Under the pieces are notes generated by a model. The model did not search any database. It was not told where the DNA came from and saw only the letters and a program-made list of their open reading frames with translations. Position numbers and translations under genes: made by a program. Source: a virus. Taken from it: a stretch of 47,653 bases of DNA. Where the stretch lies: positions 1 through 47,653 of the IMG/VR virus record IMGVR_UViG_3300024239_000128. One strand, written 5' to 3'. Numbering within the stretch: the stretch's first letter is position 1; the number at the start of each line of letters is the position of its first letter. This document shows, piece by piece, positions 2,777-17,978 of the stretch.

Positions 2777-3595
2777 TTACGCACGTCGTCGTAGCAGCCC
2801 TCCAAGTTCCATAGACAGGGCAAACGATCCGCGGCGCTGGTGCGCGTCGTTGAAGTCCTCGCCAACCACGTCGCTCATCCAATACGGCCAGCCAATCTCA
2901 CGCGCCACACGCTCACCCGTGCCGCTGGCGTCGTTATCGGCCAACACGATGCCTCCGGGCAGACCCTGCGCGATACGCTTCATATTCCCGGCGCTGAAGG
3001 TGACGTGAAGCACGTATGCGGCCTTTAGGTTGCGCAGCACGACTTGAGCTGATAGCGCTGTTGCGTAGCCTTCACACAGGATGTGCTTGCCAGATTGGCC
3101 GATGACGAATTCCGCTCCGCCCGATCGTTGGCCATACAGGAACTTCTTGTCGCCGTCTTCGCTAATAAGCTGGCAGCCCACAAGATGACGGCCATGACGC
3201 ATCGGAACCACTGCCAGTCCATCCTTCCAGACGTTCACCAGCAGTTCCGGAAAGCCTTTGGCGGCGAAATATGGATGCGTGGCTATCTCGCAGTCAGCCA
3301 AGATATCGGCAGCCTTCTGCGCTGCTTTCCTGGCTTGCTCTTCGGCCTCTTTCATCGCATCACGATTTACCTGGCGGGTGCGCTGGCGGATCTCGTCGCT
3401 GGTCGTCCCGCGCCACACTGCCGGCTCTTCCATGGTGGCCCAGTTCTGCACGAAGCCGACGTCTCCCAGCCACTTCACAGCGCCATTTCGGCTACGCGGC
3501 TTGTCCTCAGTGCGGACGCGCACCCAACGCCCCTCAGGTGGCAAGCCATCCAGCATCACGCCGTGGGCACGGGCGAATTGAACGAAGTCCATCAT
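2777..3595 (-). CDS. Toprim-domain DNA primase-like protein
   Basis: A 272-residue protein starting at 3595, where ATG overlaps the helicase stop by 4 bases (ATGATG). The C-terminal half is a Toprim domain: HILCEGYATALSAQ supplies the catalytic Glu, GIVLADNDASGTG the DxD pair, and EDFNDAH the closing acidic motif. The N-terminal part has no CHC2 zinc finger, so this is the short phage form. It would prime replication at the fork opened by the helicase just upstream. The middle (about 70-100) is a charged helix. Confident as Toprim primase-like; DNA versus RNA priming details are not visible. Confidence 0.87.
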   Translation of the reverse strand: MMDFVQFARAHGVMLDGLPPEGRWVRVRTEDKPRSRNGAVKWLGDVGFVQNWATMEEPAVWRGTTSDEIRQRTRQVNRDAMKEAEEQARKAAQKAADILADCEIATHPYFAAKGFPELLVNVWKDGLAVVPMRHGRHLVGCQLISEDGDKKFLYGQRSGGAEFVIGQSGKHILCEGYATALSAQVVLRNLKAAYVLHVTFSAGNMKRIAQGLPGGIVLADNDASGTGERVAREIGWPYWMSDVVGEDFNDAHQRRGSFALSMELGGLLRRRA

Positions 3596-5070
3596 GCTGC
3601 CTTCCTTGCCTTCGCCCATGCGATCTGGCGGGACTTCACCCATCGGGCAACCTCAGCCGAAACGGGGACCTCGACGCTTTCCAGACCACGCGGCCAGACG
3701 GTGAACTTTTCTTTGTATTTGTGCGCAACCCATCCATCGCTATAGCCACGCTCGTGCGCTACCGAAAGGAGTTCGCTATACCAGCGCTGCTTGAGTTCCC
3801 TATCCGCAGTATTCGAGCCGGGGTTGAGTTCCTGTAGCTCTCCGGGCGTAGCGATCACTTCGCTCAGGCGCGGGCGAACAAAGCCACATGCGGCGCAGTC
3901 GTCACGTCGACCGAGCCAGACGGTGCCGCAACGAGGGCATACAGCGCGCTCTCTTTCCTGCTGGGTCGGCTCTTTGCGGGGCTTTTCCTTGCCTTCGTCC
4001 ATCTTGTCGATGCCGTTGGCGTACACGTCTTCCCAGGCTTCCTGGAAACCCAGGTAGTTCCCCGAGTGGCACAACCACAGGGCGAACTCCTTGCCGGGCG
4101 AACTGCGCATGACGCGCCCCAACTGCTGGATATGCGATGCGAGGGATTTCGAGAAGGGCCGTGCGCTCACGCCGATCATCACGTCTGGCACGTCAAAGCC
4201 CTTCGTGAGAATGTCAGTCGCGATCAAGCCATGAATGCTGGTATCCGGCTTGGAGAATTCGCGAATGGCCTCGGCCTTGAAGTCGTCATCGTCGCGATAC
4301 GACAGGCTGATAAAGTTGTATCCAGCCTCTCCGAATTGGCGAGCCAGATCCGCAGCGTGCGCGACGCCTGCGGCGAAAACGATGGTCTTTCTCGGGCCGC
4401 CGAACACCTCGTGCGTCTTCTTGACCCACTCGGCAACGATATCGCCAGTAATCTTGATTCCGCGGGTTTCGGCTTCCTTTGACGACCATTCCCCAGCCAC
4501 CTTCTTGGCGCCGTTCATGTCGATTTCTTTTCCGACATACACACGCAACGGCGCCAACTTTCCCTGCTCTACCAATTGCTTGGTCGTAATCGCCGACACC
4601 ACATTGGTGTAGATGCTGCCGAGGCCCTTGGTGAAGGGAGTCGCTGAAAGCCCCACTACCTTGATACCGGGGTTGTTCTTGATGAACTCGATCGTTTGCG
4701 CGCGGGTCTGATGGGCCTCATCGATGATGAGCAGCTTCATGTCCGGCAGAGAGCCGCGCTTTTCCAGGGTCTGTGCGCTGCAAACCTGGATACGTTCATA
4801 CGGACGATGCCGCCAGTGTCCCGACTGCAACACGCCGTGGTCGATGTTGTACTTGTCCAGTCGCTCGCTGGTCTGGTTGCAGAGCACGATCCGGTCCAGA
4901 ACCATTGCCGAACGGTTGTACTTGTCGCTAGCCGCTTTCATCAGGCTGATGCCCATTTCGGTCTTGCCGCCGCCAGTCGGGCAATACAGCATTTGCGCCC
5001 GGTGGCCTTCGGCAAAGCCGGTGCGCAGCTTGTCCAGGATGGCAATCTGATAGTCGCGAAGCTCGATCAT
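3592..5070 (-). CDS. DEAD/DEAH-box SF2 helicase
   Basis: A 492-residue superfamily 2 helicase. Walker A PTGGGKT is at 31-37, DEAH at 117-120, and LSATPFTKG (motif III) at 141-149. A helicase C domain follows with IHGLIATDILTKGFDVPD and motif VI QLGRVMRSS. A zinc-ribbon-like segment (CPRCGTVW, then CAACG) lies near 380-400, and a basic tail ends the protein. It uses ATP to unwind or remodel DNA during phage replication and pairs with the adjacent Toprim primase. It overlaps the ParB-like gene upstream by 4 bases. The combination is common in temperate siphophages of beta-proteobacteria. Confidence 0.92.
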   Translation of the reverse strand: MIELRDYQIAILDKLRTGFAEGHRAQMLYCPTGGGKTEMGISLMKAASDKYNRSAMVLDRIVLCNQTSERLDKYNIDHGVLQSGHWRHRPYERIQVCSAQTLEKRGSLPDMKLLIIDEAHQTRAQTIEFIKNNPGIKVVGLSATPFTKGLGSIYTNVVSAITTKQLVEQGKLAPLRVYVGKEIDMNGAKKVAGEWSSKEAETRGIKITGDIVAEWVKKTHEVFGGPRKTIVFAAGVAHAADLARQFGEAGYNFISLSYRDDDDFKAEAIREFSKPDTSIHGLIATDILTKGFDVPDVMIGVSARPFSKSLASHIQQLGRVMRSSPGKEFALWLCHSGNYLGFQEAWEDVYANGIDKMDEGKEKPRKEPTQQERERAVCPRCGTVWLGRRDDCAACGFVRPRLSEVIATPGELQELNPGSNTADRELKQRWYSELLSVAHERGYSDGWVAHKYKEKFTVWPRGLESVEVPVSAEVARWVKSRQIAWAKARKAA

Positions 5071-5888
5071 GCTGCCTTCTCCGCTTGCTTGCGCCAGTAC
5101 GCGATCTGCTTTTGCATCTCGGAAACCTTCTGCATGTAGGTATCTCGCGATGCCTTCAAAGCGTCGTTCTCGGCTTCCAATGTGCGCACTCGTTCACGCA
5201 GTTCGCTGATCGTGGTGGCCGCTTCCGCCTTCCCTTCTTCGCTTGCATCCATTTGCTCGACGGCGAGCCGGTCGCGCAGGGACTCGTTTTCAGCGGCCAG
5301 ATCGGTGATGGTGTGCTGAGCTTCGACCAGTTCGTCATTAGCGGACGGCCCGTGTTCTGTTTCCGGCGTGAGGGTGCGCTTCGGCTTTTTGCCAGTCACC
5401 TTCTCGACCGCTTTGGGCAAGCTAACCTCGCCGTGGGCCACTTGCTTGGCAAGCTCAGGGTCGGCCTTAGCCACCTTGTCGGCCATCTTCTGCGTGTTTC
5501 GGCTTGCACCAGATTGCGCAGCGCGCTGGGCTACCGTCGTTAATTGGCCATCGTTGGCCGATTTCGGCTTGCCGACTGCTTGCGCCTTCGCCCAGTCCTG
5601 GGCGCTTGCCACGATGGCAGCCTGTTGCCCCGGCGTCATGTGCCTGCGATGCAGGTTCGCCGAAAGTACGAACGACACAAGGTTGCCACCGTCATAGTCT
5701 TCAAACACCGGCTCTGCACCAGCCTCGAGGCACGCGCGATAGCGGTTGCCGCCGTCCAGAATCATGCCTTCGTGCAAGACGATGGGCTGACGCAGACCAT
5801 TGGCCTTTATGTCATCGCGCAACGCATCAAATTCAGCACCGGACAGGCGCGGGAACAGCGTGCAAAGAGGATGCAATTCGTAGTTCAT
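5067..5888 (-). CDS. ParB-like N-terminal domain protein with coiled coil
   Basis: A 273-residue protein. The first 110 residues are a ParB/Srx-type domain with ILDGGNRYRACLEAG at 43-57 and the ANLHRRHMT motif, in which the GGNRYRA stretch corresponds to the nucleotide-binding ParB box. The middle is basic and HTH-like (TVAQRAAQSGASRNT). The C-terminus (about 185-270) is a long coiled coil (LRERVRTLEAEN). In phages such proteins sit with replication genes and may bind the origin or regulate; they rarely act with a ParA. No parA is seen here, so a partition role is unlikely. Confidence 0.85.
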   Translation of the reverse strand: MNYELHPLCTLFPRLSGAEFDALRDDIKANGLRQPIVLHEGMILDGGNRYRACLEAGAEPVFEDYDGGNLVSFVLSANLHRRHMTPGQQAAIVASAQDWAKAQAVGKPKSANDGQLTTVAQRAAQSGASRNTQKMADKVAKADPELAKQVAHGEVSLPKAVEKVTGKKPKRTLTPETEHGPSANDELVEAQHTITDLAAENESLRDRLAVEQMDASEEGKAEAATTISELRERVRTLEAENDALKASRDTYMQKVSEMQKQIAYWRKQAEKAA

Positions 5889-6325
5889 GCGATCTCCAGC
5901 ATCCCAGCAGCGGCCAATGCGCCGTCAGGGACTTCAAGGTTTTGAAGTTGCAGTTGCTCTATGCACCACACCAGCAGGTCCATCTGCTTGCCATAGCGCG
6001 TCTCAAACATCGCCTTATGCGGGTGAACCGCGATGGCCAGGCCGTCGTCCTGGTGGTGACTTCCGCACAGTGGCAGTACCTTCCAGTGGGCGTCCGGCTT
6101 GGTGCGGCCGTCTATGTGGTGGATCGACACATAGTCGTTAAAGCGGCCATCCATGCGGCAGGCAACGCAGCCGATGCGGCTGGCCAACTGGTCATGGAAG
6201 GCCTTTTGAGCAGCCGAAACGGGCGAGCCCTTCATGCCCTTGGACTTGATCGGCTGGCTGCGGCGGGAGATCGCACCGCGGGCGCGAAGCGGCGTGGTGC
6301 GCTTGAGGGTGGAATTCCAGGTCAT
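5885..6325 (-). CDS. Ref-like HNH nuclease (recombination enhancer)
   Basis: A 146-residue protein, with the start at 6325 chosen for its 4-base overlap with ninB. The core CVACRMDG, then SIHHIDGRTKPDAHW, then LPLCGSHHQ, then VHPHKAMFETRYG, matches the P1 Ref family of RecA-dependent HNH nucleases. His-His-Asp and the Cys/His pairs bind the metal. The N-terminal 40 residues are basic and unstructured, as in Ref, where they contact DNA. Ref with NinB suggests a recombination set that complements the ATPase and SSB of the rightward operon. Confidence 0.85.
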   Translation of the reverse strand: MTWNSTLKRTTPLRARGAISRRSQPIKSKGMKGSPVSAAQKAFHDQLASRIGCVACRMDGRFNDYVSIHHIDGRTKPDAHWKVLPLCGSHHQDDGLAIAVHPHKAMFETRYGKQMDLLVWCIEQLQLQNLEVPDGALAAAGMLEIA

Positions 6326-11982: not shown

Positions 11983-12435
11983 ATGACCAATCAATTCGTA
12001 GTTGGCCAATACGCCGAGGGCCAGGGCGGTATCTATATCGGCGTGACCGCGCAAGGGCGTCATTTGTTCGCTGCCGCAGCGCCGCTGGATGGCGAGTTCG
12101 AATTCGGCGGCTACGGCGACGAGCTGGAGGGCTATTCCGATCTCGATGGCGCCGAGAACACCCGCAAGCTGCTAGAGCGCGGCGGCCATACTGCGGCCCT
12201 GGCTGCGTCCGAATATACGGCAGACGACCATTCCGATTTCTACCTGCCGTCGCATCGGGAGCTTCTCCAGATCGTCGCTGTCGAGGGCTTCAACGACAAC
12301 GGCGATTACTCCTGGACCTCGACGCCCTGCGGCTCCTACCACGCCTGGGCGGTGGGTTTCGAGTACGGCCCCGTCAGCCGCTGGCTCCGCTTCGTCGAGT
12401 TCCGGGTGCGTCCCGTCCGCAGCATCATCGCTTGA
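11983..12435 (+). CDS. DGR target protein 1 (DUF1566/C-type-lectin fold)
   Basis: A 150-residue protein, almost entirely one DUF1566-type domain. It has GQGGIYIG near the N-terminus, SDFYLPSHRELLQI (the family's D-x-x-LP-x-x-x-EL motif) near 86-99, and a C-terminus with GSYHAWAVGFEYG and EFRVRPVR. Its last 33 codons are variable repeat VR1. It has no signal peptide, membrane segment or tail-attachment domain. It lies about 2.7 kb ahead of the other two targets and is paralogous to them. In DGRs this fold presents diversified residues on a stable ligand-binding surface. The ligand is unknown. Confidence 0.87.
   Translation: MTNQFVVGQYAEGQGGIYIGVTAQGRHLFAAAAPLDGEFEFGGYGDELEGYSDLDGAENTRKLLERGGHTAALAASEYTADDHSDFYLPSHRELLQIVAVEGFNDNGDYSWTSTPCGSYHAWAVGFEYGPVSRWLRFVEFRVRPVRSIIA
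12323..12422 (+). repeat. DGR variable repeat VR1
   Basis: Aligns without gaps to the template at 16775-16874. Excluding the last triplet, 17 positions differ and 13 of these are adenine in the template. The others are G-to-C, G-to-A, G-to-T and T-to-G. The adenine bias shows past retrohoming; the other changes show drift of this copy or of the template. Confidence 0.85.
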
Positions 12436-12450
12436 TCAATTCAACCTTTT

Positions 12451-12470
12451 CGCCCCGGCCTGCCGGGGCG
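12451..12470. repeat. Hairpin after VR1
   Basis: CGCCCCGG, CCTG loop, CCGGGGCG: an 8-bp stem with a 4-base loop, 15 bases after the target-1 stop. A hairpin or cruciform just after VR is needed for target recognition in the BPP-1 DGR. It could also serve as a terminator, but it has no T-run. Confidence 0.7.
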
Positions 12471-12605
12471 GCCTCTTCGAAAGCGGATGCTCTATGCCGC
12501 GTCCGGTCTTCCTAGGTTTGAACCGGGGATGCCGTGGCCACTAGTGTGCAGCGAGTAGAAATCGTCCGGGCCGAGCGCCGGAGCTGGAACCGTAACCAGC
12601 ATCAC

Positions 12606-12728
12606 GGCTTCTCAAGTCGGCGCATCCAGGCGCATCGCCCTAGCCGCGATGCGATCCCTAACTTTCAACACGTGCGAAAAGCCCAAGCCCTGCTTTATGG
12701 GCACTTGGGTGTGCCGACTTGAGAAGCC
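12606..12728. repeat. Long inverted repeat / possible structured RNA
   Basis: GGCTTCTCAAGTCGGC (12606-12621) and GCCGACTTGAGAAGCC (12713-12728) are perfect inverted repeats. Pairing continues inward for nine more positions using G-U pairs, giving a stem of about 25 bp. Inside is a second hairpin, CGCATCGC (12631-12638) with GCGATGCG (12646-12653). The region has no convincing gene, so it may be a non-coding RNA, a leader element or a cruciform. A further repeat pair, GCAGCCTCCCT (12732-12742) and AGGGAGGCTGC (12820-12830), encloses a 15-codon frame (MDVHGVALGYLWGIG). Together these account for the gap 12471-12848. Confidence 0.6.
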
Positions 12729-12848
12729 TACGCAGCCTCCCTCCCCTCCCTCAAGCTCCTCAGACATACCGGCATGGACGTTCATGGCGTGGCGCTGGGC
12801 TATCTGTGGGGAATCGGCTAGGGAGGCTGCACCTAATAAGGAATGACC

Positions 12849-13181
12849 ATGGGGACTCGCCCTAAGTTCACCTTCGATCCACCCCAGGAGATCTACGACA
12901 TGCGGTATGCAGAGGTCGTAAAAGAAATCGAGGCGGACCTGTTCAAGTGGCGCCACCAGGTCATCGAAGCCTTTGAGCGCGAATTCCCCGACGAGGACGC
13001 CGAAATGCTGGCGTTCATCGCAGGCAACGCAGATCAGCCGGAGAAGATTCTTGAGCTGGCAGCGTCTGGAATCCTGGGACCTGAATGCCGCGATCAGATG
13101 ACACTGGCTATCGCGCATCTTGCCGACTACCACACCAAGCAATACGTACGCGGCTACTGGCCGGATTGGGGAAAGGAATGA
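12849..13181 (+). CDS. Hypothetical acidic early protein
   Basis: A 110-residue protein. AAGGA lies six bases before the ATG at 12849 (MGTRPKFTF); an ATG at 12843 is also possible. It is helical and acidic, with no recognised motif. It heads a short run of coupled genes that leads into the recombination ATPase. Confidence 0.65.
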   Translation: MGTRPKFTFDPPQEIYDMRYAEVVKEIEADLFKWRHQVIEAFEREFPDEDAEMLAFIAGNADQPEKILELAASGILGPECRDQMTLAIAHLADYHTKQYVRGYWPDWGKE

Positions 13182-13402
13182 GCAAACGAGCCAAGAGGAA
13201 GAAGTACCGCCGCGAAGAACATGGACCCATGCTTGTCGCCTTCATGTCAGCCTGGGACCACGACGATCTTGCCGATGGTGCGTGGCAAGCGGTGCTGGAA
13301 TCCGGCGGTGAAGCGTTCGCCAAAGAGTACCGGATTGCAATATCCGGCTTCGATGCATTCATGGAATACGTCATGCTCAACGACAAAGGGGAAGCCCCGT
13401 GA
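13178..13402 (+). CDS. Hypothetical small protein (74 aa)
   Basis: 74 residues, start ATG at 13178 overlapping the upstream stop by 4 bases. It has a very basic N-terminus (MSKRAKRKKYRRE) followed by a helical acidic part (AWDHDDLADGAWQAVLESGG). The basic tail suggests nucleic-acid contact. Family unknown. Confidence 0.65.
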   Translation: MSKRAKRKKYRREEHGPMLVAFMSAWDHDDLADGAWQAVLESGGEAFAKEYRIAISGFDAFMEYVMLNDKGEAP

Positions 13403-13569
13403 AACGCCTCCTACGCTGGCTTATCCAAATAGACGCCCATGAACGCGCCGCAGTATTTGCCGTCATCTGCACCATCGTAGGCGTAATGGCAGCCCTACAG
13501 CACTCTGACCAGAGATCTAACGAACTCTGGGCCAAGGACGGCGGTACGGCTGTCGCTGCTAAGGAATAG
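13399..13569 (+). CDS. Small single-pass membrane protein (56 aa)
   Basis: A GTG start at 13399 overlaps the upstream TGA by 4 bases, and the frame ends at the TAG two bases before the next ATG. It begins VKRLLRWLIQ, has one hydrophobic segment (AAVFAVICTIVGVMAALQ, about 17-34) and a polar tail. The exact fit between neighbours argues that it is real. Function is unknown. Confidence 0.6.
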   Translation: MKRLLRWLIQIDAHERAAVFAVICTIVGVMAALQHSDQRSNELWAKDGGTAVAAKE

Positions 13570-13571
13570 AC

Positions 13572-14693
13572 ATGTCACTCTTTCAACGAGCTACGAATAC
13601 CCAGGCCTACCTGAAGGCCGGCATCATGGGCTTTGCTGGCGACGGCAAGACCTACACTGCATCCGAGATTGCGATTGGCTTGGTGGAGTTGATGCGCCAG
13701 CGCGAACTGCCCGCGGGCAACAACCCGGTCATGTTTTTGGACACAGAAACCGGGTCCGATTGGGTGAAGCCGCGCTTCGACGCTGCCCATATCGAACTGT
13801 TCACCGCAAAGACGCGGGCGTTCGTGGACCTGCTGACCGCTGTCCGGGAAGCTGAATCGTCCGGCTCGGTTCTGCTGATCGATTCCATCAGCCACTTCTG
13901 GCGCAACCTGACCGAAGAGTACGCCCAGCGCAAGAACCGCAAGCGCGGCCTGGAATTCCAGGACTGGGCGTGGCTCAAGGCTGAATGGGGCAAGTTCACC
14001 GATCTGTTCGTCAATAGCAAGTGCCACATCATCATGTGCGGCCGCGCTGGCTACGAATACGACTTCTTCGAGAACGAGTCTGGCAAGAAGGAACTGACCA
14101 AGACTGGCGTCAAGATGAAGGCCGAAACCGAAACGGGCTACGAGCCGTCCATTCTGATCCTGATGGAAAAGAACCAGGAACTCATCGAAGGCGGTGGCAC
14201 TCGGGTATGGCGTACTGCAACTGTCCTCAAGGACCGCAGCACCCGCATCGATGGAAAGACGTTCGAAAATCCGACCTTCCGCGACTTCCTGCCGCATATC
14301 GAATTCCTGAACCTTGGCGGCGAACACTTGGGTATCGACACCAGCCGCACCAGCGAAGAACTGTTCGCAGAGGACGGGGAGCCGCGCTGGCAGAAGGAAA
14401 AGCGGATGAAGGAAATCGCGCTTGATGAGATCGCCGAGATCATCGGTAAGCACCATCCTGGCCAATCCGCTGACGCCAAGAAAGCCAAGGGCGATCTGCT
14501 CGAAGACGTGTTCGGCAGCCGCTCCTGGGAGCGCATCAAGTCCTTCGACTGGCCGACCATCAACATGTTTCGCGATGACCTCTGGGTGAAGCTGGAAGGC
14601 AAGCACTATGCCTGGGAGAAACCTGACGCCCCGACCGATCCCGAGGAAACTGCGGACGAAACCAATCTGATCCCTGAAGGAGCGGCAGCGTAG
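13572..14693 (+). CDS. RecA-fold ATPase (Sak4-like recombinase)
   Basis: A 373-residue P-loop protein with Walker A GFAGDGKT at 20-27, Walker B LLID at 101-104, and the DTETGSDW and [11 protein letters not shown] segments typical of phage RecA-like AAA proteins. Sak4 proteins anneal and exchange single strands with help from SSB. The next gene is SSB, overlapping by one base, which is the standard Sak4-SSB pairing. The C-terminal 100 residues are a separate helical region. With NinB and Ref in the other operon, the phage appears to carry its own recombination set. Confidence 0.83.
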
Positions 14694-15148
14694 TGGCCAG
14701 CGTTAACAAAGTCATCTTGGTGGGCAACTTGGGACGCGACCCGGAAGTCCGCTACAGCCCCGGCGGGGCCGCAATCTGCAACATGTCCATCGCCACGACC
14801 TCCACCTGGAAGGACAAGGCATCGGGCGAACGCCGCGAAGAAACCGAATGGCACCGCGTGGTCATGTACAACCGCCTGGCCGAGATCGCCGGCGAATACC
14901 TGAAGAAGGGCCGCTCGGTGTACATCGAAGGCCGCCTGAAGACCCGCAAGTGGCAGGACAAGGACACCGGCGCTGACCGCTACAGCACCGAAATCGTCGC
15001 CGACCAGATGCAAATGCTGGGCGGTAAAGTCGATGAGGTAGACCGCGGCCCCGCCCAGCGCCCCGTCAGACAGCCTCAGCAACGCCAACAGCCACAGCAG
15101 GAAGCATCTTCCTCTCTATCGGACATGTCGGACGACATTCCTTTCTAG
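14693..15148 (+). CDS. ssb: Single-stranded DNA-binding protein
   Basis: A 151-residue bacterial-type SSB with a GTG start at 14693 sharing one base with the upstream stop (TAGTG). The OB fold spans about 1-110: [32 protein letters not shown], and the [15 protein letters not shown] strand pair. A Gln-rich linker leads to the acidic tip DDIPF that recruits partner proteins. It binds replication intermediates and probably works with the adjacent ATPase. Confidence 0.95.
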
Positions 15149-15189
15149 CACCTCCAGGCCGCATCACTGGCCGATCCCTTAGGAAAACC

Positions 15190-15762
15190 ATGAACGACAC
15201 TATCCAGCTTGACCTGGGCGGCGGTTCGCGCCTGGAAGTTCCTGCGCGCATTGCTTTGGACGCGCTGCTCGAAAGATTGACCTCTTCGCCCTCGCGCTTG
15301 GCACGACCCGCACTGATCGGTGCCGAACTTCCCGGGCAGGGCGGCATTTATGCGGGTGACATCCTCGGCGACGACGGTGTTGTCTACGGCCTCATTGTCG
15401 CCAGCGAGGACCTGGACGGAACCTACGCCTGGGGGGCGGAGGATGGCGAACGCACCCCTAGCACCTGGGACGGCTTGGTCAACACCAACGATCTGCTACG
15501 CCATGACAAGGATCACGCGGCCGCTCGCGCCGCCAAGGCTTACAGCGCTGACGGGCATGCCGACTTCTACCTGCCCGCCAAGCGCGAGCTGCAGATCATC
15601 GCGGCCAACCTGCCCCACCTGTTTCAGCCGAAGCCCTACTGGACCTCCTCGCCCTACGGCTCCTTCAACGCCTGGGCGGTGTATTTCGAGCACGGCAGCG
15701 TCGGCCACTGGCACCGCTACGGCGAGTTCCGAGTTCGTCCCGTCCGCAGATTTACCTATTGA
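15190..15762 (+). CDS. DGR target protein 2 (DUF1566/C-type-lectin fold)
   Basis: A 190-residue protein. The first 45 residues are extra to the other two targets: a short region with alternating charge and a helix (IALDALLERLT). The DUF1566 domain follows, with GQGGIYAG, HADFYLPAKRELQII and the C-terminal YWTSSPYGS, ending in variable repeat VR2. No signal peptide or membrane segment is present. VR2 differs from the template only at template adenines, so this is the most recently diversified target. It starts 41 bases after ssb. Confidence 0.9.
   Translation: MNDTIQLDLGGGSRLEVPARIALDALLERLTSSPSRLARPALIGAELPGQGGIYAGDILGDDGVVYGLIVASEDLDGTYAWGAEDGERTPSTWDGLVNTNDLLRHDKDHAAARAAKAYSADGHADFYLPAKRELQIIAANLPHLFQPKPYWTSSPYGSFNAWAVYFEHGSVGHWHRYGEFRVRPVRRFTY
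15648..15752 (+). repeat. DGR variable repeat VR2
   Basis: 105 bases aligned without gaps to TR 16773-16877. Exactly seven positions differ, and in the template every one is adenine (TR 16789, 16790, 16807, 16816, 16829, 16831 and 16874). Adenines make up 21 of the 105 template bases, so chance is an unlikely explanation. This is the signature of adenine-specific mutagenic retrohoming. Confidence 0.95.
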
Positions 15763-15778
15763 TCCATTTACCCCTTAA

Positions 15779-15793
15779 GCGGGCGAAGCCCGC
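15779..15793. repeat. Hairpin after VR2
   Basis: GCGGGC, GAA loop, GCCCGC: a 6-bp stem, 16 bases after the target-2 stop. Its position matches the hairpins after VR1 and VR3, which suggests a shared role in target recognition. Confidence 0.7.
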
Positions 15794-15804
15794 AGGAGAC
15801 TTGC

Positions 15805-16209
15805 ATGACCGCTACCGCAACGACCGCGCCCGCCATCGGGCAGGAATGGCCTGAACAGGGCGGCATTTACATCGGCTCCCGCCTGATCGATGGCGCCGTG
15901 CATCACGTGATCATCCCTGGCGGCAAGGAATTCGACCTGGATGGCGTGGAATTCAATGACATGGTTTCGGCCGTCACCGATCGCGGCGAAGTGAACGGCC
16001 ATGCCGATTGGCGCGCGCCGGACCAGGAAGACATGATGCTGGCCTACATCAACGCCCCGGACCTGTTCGAAAAGAACGATTGGTACTGGACGAACAAGCC
16101 CTACGGTTCCTCCAGCGCCTGGGCGGTGGTTTTCGAGACCGGCTACATCCTCTACTGGAGCTGCTACTTCGAGTTCCGGGTTCGTCCCATCCGCAGCATC
16201 ATCGCTTGA
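15805..16209 (+). CDS. DGR target protein 3 (DUF1566/C-type-lectin fold)
   Basis: A 134-residue paralogue of targets 1 and 2. It has EQGGIYIGSRLIDG near 17-30, GHADWRAPDQEDMML in place of the usual D-x-x-LP motif, WYWTNKPYGSSSAWAV near the end, and EFRVRPIR. The LP to AP change and the different surrounding residues make it the most divergent of the three. It begins 12 bases after the VR2 hairpin. Its last 30-odd codons are VR3. Confidence 0.87.
   Translation: MTATATTAPAIGQEWPEQGGIYIGSRLIDGAVHHVIIPGGKEFDLDGVEFNDMVSAVTDRGEVNGHADWRAPDQEDMMLAYINAPDLFEKNDWYWTNKPYGSSSAWAVVFETGYILYWSCYFEFRVRPIRSIIA
16098..16195 (+). repeat. DGR variable repeat VR3
   Basis: Aligns to TR 16776-16873. Of about 20 differences, 11 are at template adenines and 9 are not (C-to-T, G-to-A, G-to-C, C-to-A and G-to-T among them). 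It is related to the template and adenine-enriched, but much drifted. Its last bases (CGCAGCATCATCGCTTGA) match VR1, not VR2. Confidence 0.75.
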
Positions 16210-16224
16210 TCCCTTGAACCCTTT

Positions 16225-16239
16225 GCGGGCGTAGCCCGC
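16225..16239. repeat. Hairpin after VR3
   Basis: GCGGGC, GTA loop, GCCCGC: a 6-bp stem, 15 bases after the target-3 stop and 7 bases before the avd start. Confidence 0.7.
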
Positions 16240-16246
16240 CGATGCC

Positions 16247-16633
16247 ATGGCCTTGCACACGGACACCAAGATTTTCAAGGCGACCTATGATCTGAGCCTA
16301 TTGGTCACGAAGCTTGTGGCGAACATGCCCAGGAACTACAAAGCCGATTTCGGGGCTGATCTGCGCAAGCAGTGCTTCGAACTGGTGGCTCTGGTGTATC
16401 GGGCCAACTCGGCGTCCGACAGGCCGCCCGTGATCCGGATTCTTCGGGAACGAGTGATTACGGTAGATCTGTCGCTGCGCTTGGCGACGGACCTGCGATT
16501 GATTTCTCGCGGGCAGTATGGCGAGGCAATCGCGTTGACCGATAGCATCGGACGCCAGGCTACAGGATGGCTGAAACACTCCGAGAATGCGCTTGCTGCC
16601 CCGCCGTCATGGCGGCCGGGTCAACGCGCTTGA
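16247..16633 (+). CDS. avd: Avd-like accessory variability determinant
   Basis: A 128-residue, nearly all-helical protein matching the size and pattern of BPP-1 Avd, a four-helix-bundle pentamer that binds the DGR RNA and reverse transcriptase. Visible helices are KATYDLSLLVTKLVANMP, DFGADLRKQCFELVALVYRA, the region around RILRERVITVDLSLRLATDL, and RQATGWLKHSENAL. Basic residues are spread along the faces. It lies between target 3 and the template, the order of the BPP-1 cassette, and is needed in that system for template-primed cDNA synthesis. Confidence 0.88.
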   Translation: MALHTDTKIFKATYDLSLLVTKLVANMPRNYKADFGADLRKQCFELVALVYRANSASDRPPVIRILRERVITVDLSLRLATDLRLISRGQYGEAIALTDSIGRQATGWLKHSENALAAPPSWRPGQRA

Positions 16634-16772
16634 TGATCTGGTCACGCCGCTGGTCCACAAGGCCACCGATATGCGCACTAGAGGAAACCAACGGCTCAGG
16701 CCGGCCAGGTCCCGCGCAGTTTTCCCGCTGATCCGGCAATCCTTCGGCGGGGCGACGTGGATAGCGTGATAT

Positions 16773-16877
16773 CTCGCCCTACGGCTCCAACAACGCCTGG
16801 GCGGTGAATTTCGAGAACGGCAGCGTCGACAACTGGCACCGCTACGGCGAGTTCCGAGTTCGTCCCGTCCGCAAATT
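16773..16877 (+). repeat. DGR template repeat (TR)
   Basis: A non-coding 105-base copy of the VR sequence with the AAY-codon pattern of DGR templates. In the VR frame it carries four AAC codons and one AAT codon where the targets have varied residues; randomising A in AAY gives many amino acids and no stops. It lies 139 bases after avd and 15 bases before the reverse transcriptase ATG. Its RNA should prime and template the mutagenic cDNA. No GC hairpin follows it, unlike the VRs, consistent with one-way transfer from TR to VR. Confidence 0.93.
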
Positions 16878-16892
16878 GTCCTCGGAGTTTCT

Positions 16893-17978
16893 ATGGATTC
16901 TTGCCATTCGTTCGCGGAGTTGGTGCAGGCTTACTTCGACTGCCGCCGGCTCAAAAGGAATACGGCCAGTGCTCTGCGCTTTGAAATGAACCTGGAGCGG
17001 AATCTGGCCGAGCTAGACGAAGAGCTCAGGAGCGGCGAATACCGCCCCGGACGCTCTATCTGCTTCGTTATCACCCATCCCAAGCCGCGAGAGGTCTGGG
17101 CGGCTGATTTCCGAGATCGAGTGGTTCACCACCTTCTGTACAACAAGATCGCGCCGCGTTTCCTGTCGGGGTTCATTGCCGATTCGTGCGCATGCATTCC
17201 TGGTCGCGGCACTCTCTATGCCGCCCAGCGGCTAGAAGCAAAGGTGCGCAGTGTCACGCAGAACTGGTCACGGCCGGCGATGTATCTAAAAGCCGATTTG
17301 GCTAATTTCTTCGTCAGCATCGACAAGCGATACCTCTGGCTTCGGATCGGCGGGAAGATTCCTGAAAACTGGTGGCGGCGGTTGGCTGCTCAGATCCTAT
17401 TTCACGATCCCAGGCCCGATGTCGAAATGCGAGGCAACCGGGCAACGGTTGCGTTGGTCCCCAGGCATAAGCGCCTTGGTGAAGCACCTGACCATTGCGG
17501 CCTTCCAATTGGGAACCTGTCGTCTCAGTTCTTCGCCAACATCCTCTTGGATGGCCTGGACAAGTACGTGAAGCATAGCCTGCGTGGACGTCATTACGTC
17601 AGATACGTTGACGATTTCATCTTGCTACACCCGTCTTCCAAATGGCTGGGGCAAGCGCTGGATTCCATCAATACCTATCTTCCAAAGCTGGGCCTGTCGC
17701 TAAACCCACGCAAGACCATCATCCAGCCCGTTGATCGGGGCGTCGATTTTGCCGGCCACGTCATCAAGCCATGGCGCCGGGAAGTGCGTAGACGCTCCGT
17801 CCGTACCGCGCTGCGTCGGATCGAAGCACTTCCTCAAGAGAAAGTCTTCGAGACCGGCAACAGCTATCTGGGCCTCTTGCGGCATGCAGACGGGCACCGA
17901 GACAGCGCGCTCATTGCCAATGCCTTAAGGAAGCGTGGCCATTTCATCAGCGCCGACCTGACTAAAGCCTACCGGTAG
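16893..17978 (+). CDS. DGR reverse transcriptase
   Basis: A 361-residue reverse transcriptase. Motif A is KADLANFFVSID (Asp135). The DGR-specific motif is IGNLSSQ at 206-212, where other bacterial RTs have QGxxxSP. The active site is YVDD at 238-241, followed by SLNPRKT and a thumb region. GGAG lies eight bases before the ATG, just after TR. It copies TR RNA into cDNA with errors at adenines, and the product replaces VR. The length is usual for DGR enzymes and no motif is broken, so it should be active. Confidence 0.96.
   Translation: MDSCHSFAELVQAYFDCRRLKRNTASALRFEMNLERNLAELDEELRSGEYRPGRSICFVITHPKPREVWAADFRDRVVHHLLYNKIAPRFLSGFIADSCACIPGRGTLYAAQRLEAKVRSVTQNWSRPAMYLKADLANFFVSIDKRYLWLRIGGKIPENWWRRLAAQILFHDPRPDVEMRGNRATVALVPRHKRLGEAPDHCGLPIGNLSSQFFANILLDGLDKYVKHSLRGRHYVRYVDDFILLHPSSKWLGQALDSINTYLPKLGLSLNPRKTIIQPVDRGVDFAGHVIKPWRREVRRRSVRTALRRIEALPQEKVFETGNSYLGLLRHADGHRDSALIANALRKRGHFISADLTKAYR

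Follow-up and report, generated by a model that had tools for sequence, protein, structure and literature searches.

The DNA analysed here (hereafter the window) is a 47.7-kb virus record (47,653 nucleotides) with genes for portal, capsid, terminase and tail, and it carries a diversity-generating retroelement (DGR). Such elements ordinarily write an unchanging template repeat (TR) into the variable repeats (VRs) of target genes, altering it at random where the template has A; here the 3' half of the TR has itself very probably been replaced with an adenine-mutagenised copy, judging from the TR sequences of its relatives. This working phage DGR spans 11983-17978: three small target genes, each with an Lcl_C-like C terminus, are followed by avd, the RT-15 RNA, the single TR and the RT gene (Table 1). 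The targets, putatively of C-type-lectin-like fold, are assigned to the Lcl_C family by sequence, the protein with VR2 scoring above the curated cut-off and those with VR1 and VR3 under it. The RT is of the DGR type and Avd adjoins the TR, and a hairpin and an IMH-like 3' end are found at the VRs and are absent at the TR; a hairpin was looked for after the window TR and none was found. Changes between TR and VR are confined to template adenines in VR2 directly and in VR1 when the unedited TR of a relative is taken as template; VR3 keeps two unexplained non-A changes even against the best inferred template allele. DGRs are usually assumed to have an invariant template and a one-way flow from TR to VR, and here the window departs from that assumption by six A-only changes in its TR. 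Genes for a Sak4-like/AAA_24 ATPase and an SSB sit between target genes 1 and 2 (13572-15148); in Burkholderia phage Magia, a RecT gene likewise lies between two of the DGR targets.

Table 1. Features of the DGR in the window.
Feature	Position	Strand	Description
Target gene 1	11983..12435	+	150 aa, Lcl_C/DUF1566-like C terminus; Pfam PF07603 E=1.3e-5, below curated cut-off
VR1	12323..12421	+	against unedited L010-type template: 0 non-A, 16 A changes
Hairpin 3' of VR1	12451..12470	+	CGCCCCGGC(CT)GCCGGGGCG
Target gene 2	15190..15762	+	190 aa, Lcl_C; Pfam PF07603 E=2.9e-9, above curated cut-off
VR2	15648..15752	+	against edited TR: 7 A changes, 0 non-A; has 6/6 TR edits
Hairpin 3' of VR2	15779..15793	+	GCGGGC(GAA)GCCCGC
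Target gene 3	15805..16209	+	134 aa, Lcl_C-like; Pfam PF07603 E=1.5e-7, below curated cut-off
VR3	16098..16195	+	other unedited template allele: GGT at 16107, ATC at 16147, CGGGTT; two private changes
Hairpin 3' of VR3	16225..16239	+	GCGGGC(GTA)GCCCGC
avd accessory protein	16247..16633	+	Pfam bAvd PF22296 42 bits (cut-off 40); PHROG_3206 'Avd protein of DGR' 1.9e-27
RT-15 RNA (Rfam RF03018)	16587..16776	+	end of avd to start of TR; 155.6 bits (gathering threshold 82, exceeded), E=3.4e-38
TR, edited	about 16772..16877	+	six sites depart from ancestral TR
TR edits	16823 A>G, 16828 A>G, 16837 A>C, 16843 A>T, 16846 A>G, 16847 A>G	+	all at ancestral A
DGR reverse transcriptase	16893..17978	+	361 aa, contains IGNLSSQ; Pfam RVT_1; PHROG_1423 3.4e-111; best PDB match 8ub7, 2.8e-36

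The system resembles the DGR of Bordetella phage BPP-1 (brt, avd, TR, and a VR in mtd) by its RT, its Avd and a TR placed between avd and RT, and also by A-specific TR-to-VR differences, a hairpin 3' of the VR and an IMH-type mismatch between the 3' ends of TR and VR. Unlike BPP-1, which has a single target and a hairpin with a 4-nt GRNA loop, the window has three targets, located among early recombination genes and not tail genes, its hairpin loops are 2-3 nt long and its TR is edited. It also shares gene order and the RT-15 RNA with the RT-15 type DGRs with Lcl_C/DUF1566 targets of Pseudomonas, Burkholderia and Achromobacter phages, such as Burkholderia phage Magia and Pseudomonas phage Cruim01, which have RTs 60-96% identical and at least two lectin-like targets. 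Nearly all these RT-15 type DGRs, unlike the window, keep the full adenine set of the TR together with VRs changed at A only (pure-A).

The TR comparison took in ten relatives (L003-L010, L079 and L145), whose TR reads GGCAACGTCAACAACTGGAACCGCAACAACGAG, with a silent GGT for GGC in one of them; the window TR reads GGCAGCGTCGACAACTGGCACCGCTACGGCGAG. All ten have A at the six edited sites, and in the TR core six changes at A and none at non-A are private to the window (chance of six out of six falling on A, P=1.8e-4). Among relatives with RT genes just 80-85% identical, TR adenines differ mutually at 0-2 sites. The edits change six of the 12 A's of the 3' half, with 7.3 expected under homing, and the 5' half is unedited (0 of 10 A's changed, P=2.5e-4 for a full-length tract), so that the edited part of the TR keeps the usual 3'-anchored polarity of homing. 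The five codons concerned now encode 4, 4, 4, 4 and 1 amino acids, versus 15 each before, narrowing the codon-level repertoire approximately 3000-fold. All six edits are present in VR2, which has since gained seven further A-only changes, indicating that the new template works. Neither VR1 nor VR3 has the set of edits; both correspond to earlier templates that were unedited.

The first-pass annotation had compared the three VRs with the window TR and counted 7 differences over the 105 bases of VR2, all at template A and none at non-A, 17 in VR1 (13 at A plus 4 at non-A) and 20 in VR3 (11 and 9); these counts are exact. The 3' end CGCAGCATCATCGCTTGA that it reported as common to VR1 and VR3, and the different end of VR2, CGCAGATTTACCTATTGA, are both present. 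Since 462 of the 477 VRs from 238 DGR loci have at most two non-A mismatches to their own TR, the four of VR1 and the nine of VR3 are real outliers. The annotation had explained them by taking VR2 as the live target and VR1 and VR3 as copies fed by an earlier template or rarely targeted, with the 3' end possibly marking a changed initiation site. The earlier template is supported, the live target and the changed site are not, and the editing of the TR itself had been missed.

Indeed, VR1 has no non-A mismatch with the unedited TR of L010, and those of VR3, 9 with the window TR, drop to 4 with unedited TRs and to 2 if an older allele is inferred. These four VR3 sites, 16107, 16147, 16162 and 16189, are all C>T or G>A. 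VR1 of L119 and VR1 of L135 also have GGT (16107) and ATC (16147), as would be expected from another, putative older template allele; a scan for a TR carrying this GGT/ATC allele returned VRs only. The other two (16162 C>T and 16189 G>A) are private to VR3 and explained by no known template. VR1, VR2 and VR3 are thus snapshots of three template states, since each matches a different template, namely the L010 type, the edited TR and the putative GGT/ATC allele, respectively.

RT scans provided nine close relatives, eight viral contigs (RT 90-96%) and the Achromobacter insuavis prophage L079 (RT 89%), all with an identical DGR layout. With their own TR as reference, changed template A's amount to 59/120 in VR1, 109/215 in VR2 and 109/215 in VR3, that is 49%, 51% and 51% (chi-square p=0.96). 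Comparing the three loci in relatives was the check named by the first-pass annotation, and equal rates were the outcome that it had set against its own proposal. Within each relative, the silent non-A letters of the TR (CGAGTT, CGGGTT or CGGGTG) are common to the VRs, and therefore all of them have been overwritten from the local template. The types of 3' end are fixed by locus, VR2 always having GATTYACCTATTGA and VR1 and VR3 CATCATCGCTT, also in relatives whose VRs are all pure-A. GC-rich hairpins are found 30-33 nt 3' of the VR core in 22 of the 23 VRs of the relatives, L008 VR1 being the only one without, and in the three window VRs, where the distance is 31-32 nt; a hairpin was never seen after a TR, in the relatives or in the window. 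With equal rates, locus-bound 3' ends and hairpins at all VRs but one, there is no gradient, nor does anything indicate that the initiation site has changed. As a side observation, the variable region of a VR1-type repeat in L007 (2791-2896) is frameshifted by an insertion of one base, and a fourth VR lies at 3417, 0.6 kb downstream.

The 6-kb contig L135, the only record returned by a scan for further edited TRs although it ends before its own TR, matches the window at 100% identity over 630 bp, including all of VR2, and at about 89% elsewhere. Its VR3 differs from the window VR3 and is pure-A versus the edited TR. VR3 is thus live and VR2 is the one left unchanged, because VR3 has been rewritten in L135 and VR2 is identical to that of the window. 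That VR2 would be the sole live target, VR1 and VR3 being old or rarely used and marked by a changed initiation site, fits the fact that VR2 alone is pure-A against the present TR within the window, but this reading is hardly tenable in view of the rates, ends and hairpins described above and of a VR3, not a VR2, that differs between the window and L135. After its VR3, L135 repeats with zero mismatches the 366 bp found 3' of VR2 (reverse strand, 5654-6020). As this tail repeats the VR2-VR3 spacer, the last third of L135 VR3 may stem from VR2 by misassembly, in which case independent support is left for two of the six edits only (16823 and 16828). The 366-bp repeat stems either from a loop in the assembly or from a genuine unequal crossover of VR2 with VR3, which would create an extra target gene.

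We propose that an adenine-mutagenised copy would first have overwritten the 3' half of the TR, the DNA coming either from a VR copied back by recombination or from cDNA landing on the TR instead of a VR. VR2 would then have been re-homed from the new template, likewise VR3 in the L135 lineage, and the window VR1 and VR3 would not yet have been re-homed.

A comparison of neighbouring TRs covered 159 loci, each having two or more comparable relatives. Private A losses are absent from the TR of 134 loci and number one in 14, and in loci with fewer than three losses TR A sites change no faster than other sites (20/4516 vs 61/10757). Five loci have 6-18 private A losses (6 in the window, 11 in L229, 12 in L180, 13 (13-16) in L307 and 18 in L231), and their TRs have no private non-A substitution. 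This bimodal distribution argues for events, not drift. L033 has three private A losses, and in L012, compared with one close sister only, 13 of 13 TR changes are at A. Six independent loci besides the window thus have an A-only TR change (L231, L307, L012, L180, L229 and L033), and the frequency of recurrent A-only template loss is about 4% of the loci with comparable relatives. Four of the six are metagenomic contigs; L033 and L231 are presumably sequenced isolates, from the kind of their IMG record numbers. Counting against the proposal, the rewriting pattern was found in none of the 42 other loci scanned from cultured genomes or phage records. The spectrum of the TR edits (T33, G29, C17) is near, yet not identical to, that of the VRs (p=0.06 for the comparison) and was set aside as an argument.

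Five further loci were not counted as edited. In L051, L045 and L254, A losses are mixed with equally many other changes. L196 and L204 have non-A mismatches at non-A barcode sites, resembling template-allele exchange; those of the L196 VR at 4514 and of both L204 VRs match TR alleles of other phages, suggesting that phages exchange template alleles. Separately, avd, TR and RT are gone and VR-bearing targets are kept in L129 (from about 7430) and L118 (reverse strand, from about 4830), where a NUMOD4/HNH endonuclease gene begins right after the first codons of avd. VRs resembling those of L129 also occur in the Achromobacter genome G022, where the RT had no match.

How the mutagenised copy reached the TR can be approached through the seven edited loci. 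In six of them, L229 being the exception, one VR carries every TR edit, as expected if homologous recombination or gene conversion carried VR DNA into the TR, a selected variant becoming the template. In L231, L180 and L307 a VR is almost identical to the TR, with 1 of 17, 1 of 20 and 2 of 13 A's differing; the four VR values of these loci (0.05-0.15) are the lowest of 343 VRs, the next being 0.23, and such near-identity has P=0.005, 0.003 and 0.09, respectively, under normal homing. These near-identical VRs favour copying from VR to TR, and the Sak4-like/AAA ATPase and SSB genes between the targets are consistent with it. However, no matching VR exists in the whole 49.8-kb record of L229, two VR2 changes are interleaved with the edits in the window, so that a later re-homing is needed, and when a DGR was reconstituted in E. 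coli, TR and VR seldom recombined (PMC12875486). On balance, we give the transfer of VR DNA to the TR an even chance or slightly better. The absence of a matching VR in L229, with its 11 edits at A, favours instead self-homing, in which the TR, and not a VR, takes up mutagenised cDNA, or an outside donor. Self-homing also agrees with the window tract, 3'-anchored and with 6 of 12 A's changed as at the normal homing rate, and with the 3'-most variable codons being included in all seven edited tracts. It does not predict the near-identity of VRs to TR in L231 and L180, and no hairpin follows the TR, whose 3' junction also differs (CGCAAAT vs CGCAGAT/CGCAGCAT). The exchange of the IMH* of the BPP-1 TR for IMH reportedly turns the TR into a target. 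We consider self-homing a real but somewhat improbable route. In BPP-1, a 21-bp IMH element sets the direction from TR to VR, the downstream hairpin is required, and 3' junction and hairpin direct homing away from the TR (PMC3240598).

Two other explanations do without a rewriting event in the window lineage. The TR-RT cassette could have been acquired whole from a phage with a long-standing edited TR, a reading in line with the three different non-A barcodes of VR1, VR2 and VR3 and with the mosaicism of these phages, L135 being a case in point with its 630 bp of identity and about 89% elsewhere. We find it unlikely: edits confined to A relative to ten relatives still need a rewriting event somewhere, and the edited TR was in no other record scanned. 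A plasmid search with the TR-RT region as query gave no match. Alternatively, TR and VR paths may have been merged in short-read assembly, as TR and VR share exact ends of 15-40 bp and several edited loci are metagenomic contigs; the L231 TR equals its VR over about 100 nt, and an assembly merge is possible there. In the window, the TR contains AGCGTCGACAAC, which is absent from VR2 and from unedited TRs alike and therefore excludes a merge of these two as its source, and the L012 TR differs from both VRs bearing its 13 edits, making an artefact quite improbable.

The template is called invariant in reviews (e.g. PMC8867640), and we found no description of TR editing, self-homing, VR-to-TR transfer or naturally rewritten templates in the openly accessible literature. 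Yan et al. 2019 listed DGRs with non-A-to-N substitutions (PMC6642488), and a survey noted that <75% of the mismatches fall on A in a small number of outlier clusters (PMC8144416). Like the window, the cases of Yan et al. include TR/VR non-A mismatches in one VR of a multi-VR DUF1566 locus; unlike here, where relatives show that the TR changed, those mismatches were counted as VR changes. Template rewriting explains part of the 'non-adenine' mismatches that surveys score as VR errors, and comparing TRs between relatives is a simple test for it.

DGRs have been described with an invariant template guarded by the asymmetry of the TR and VR 3' ends, and the recurrent A-only loss indicates that this guard leaks. 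Template adenines then become a resource subject to loss, and a past variant can stay recorded in the system. We put forward, tentatively and as something short of probable, that natural DGR templates undergo repeated rewriting in which a diversified target is copied back, from VR to TR. If so, a successful variant would become the new starting point, and later rounds of diversification would search a narrower set of proteins.
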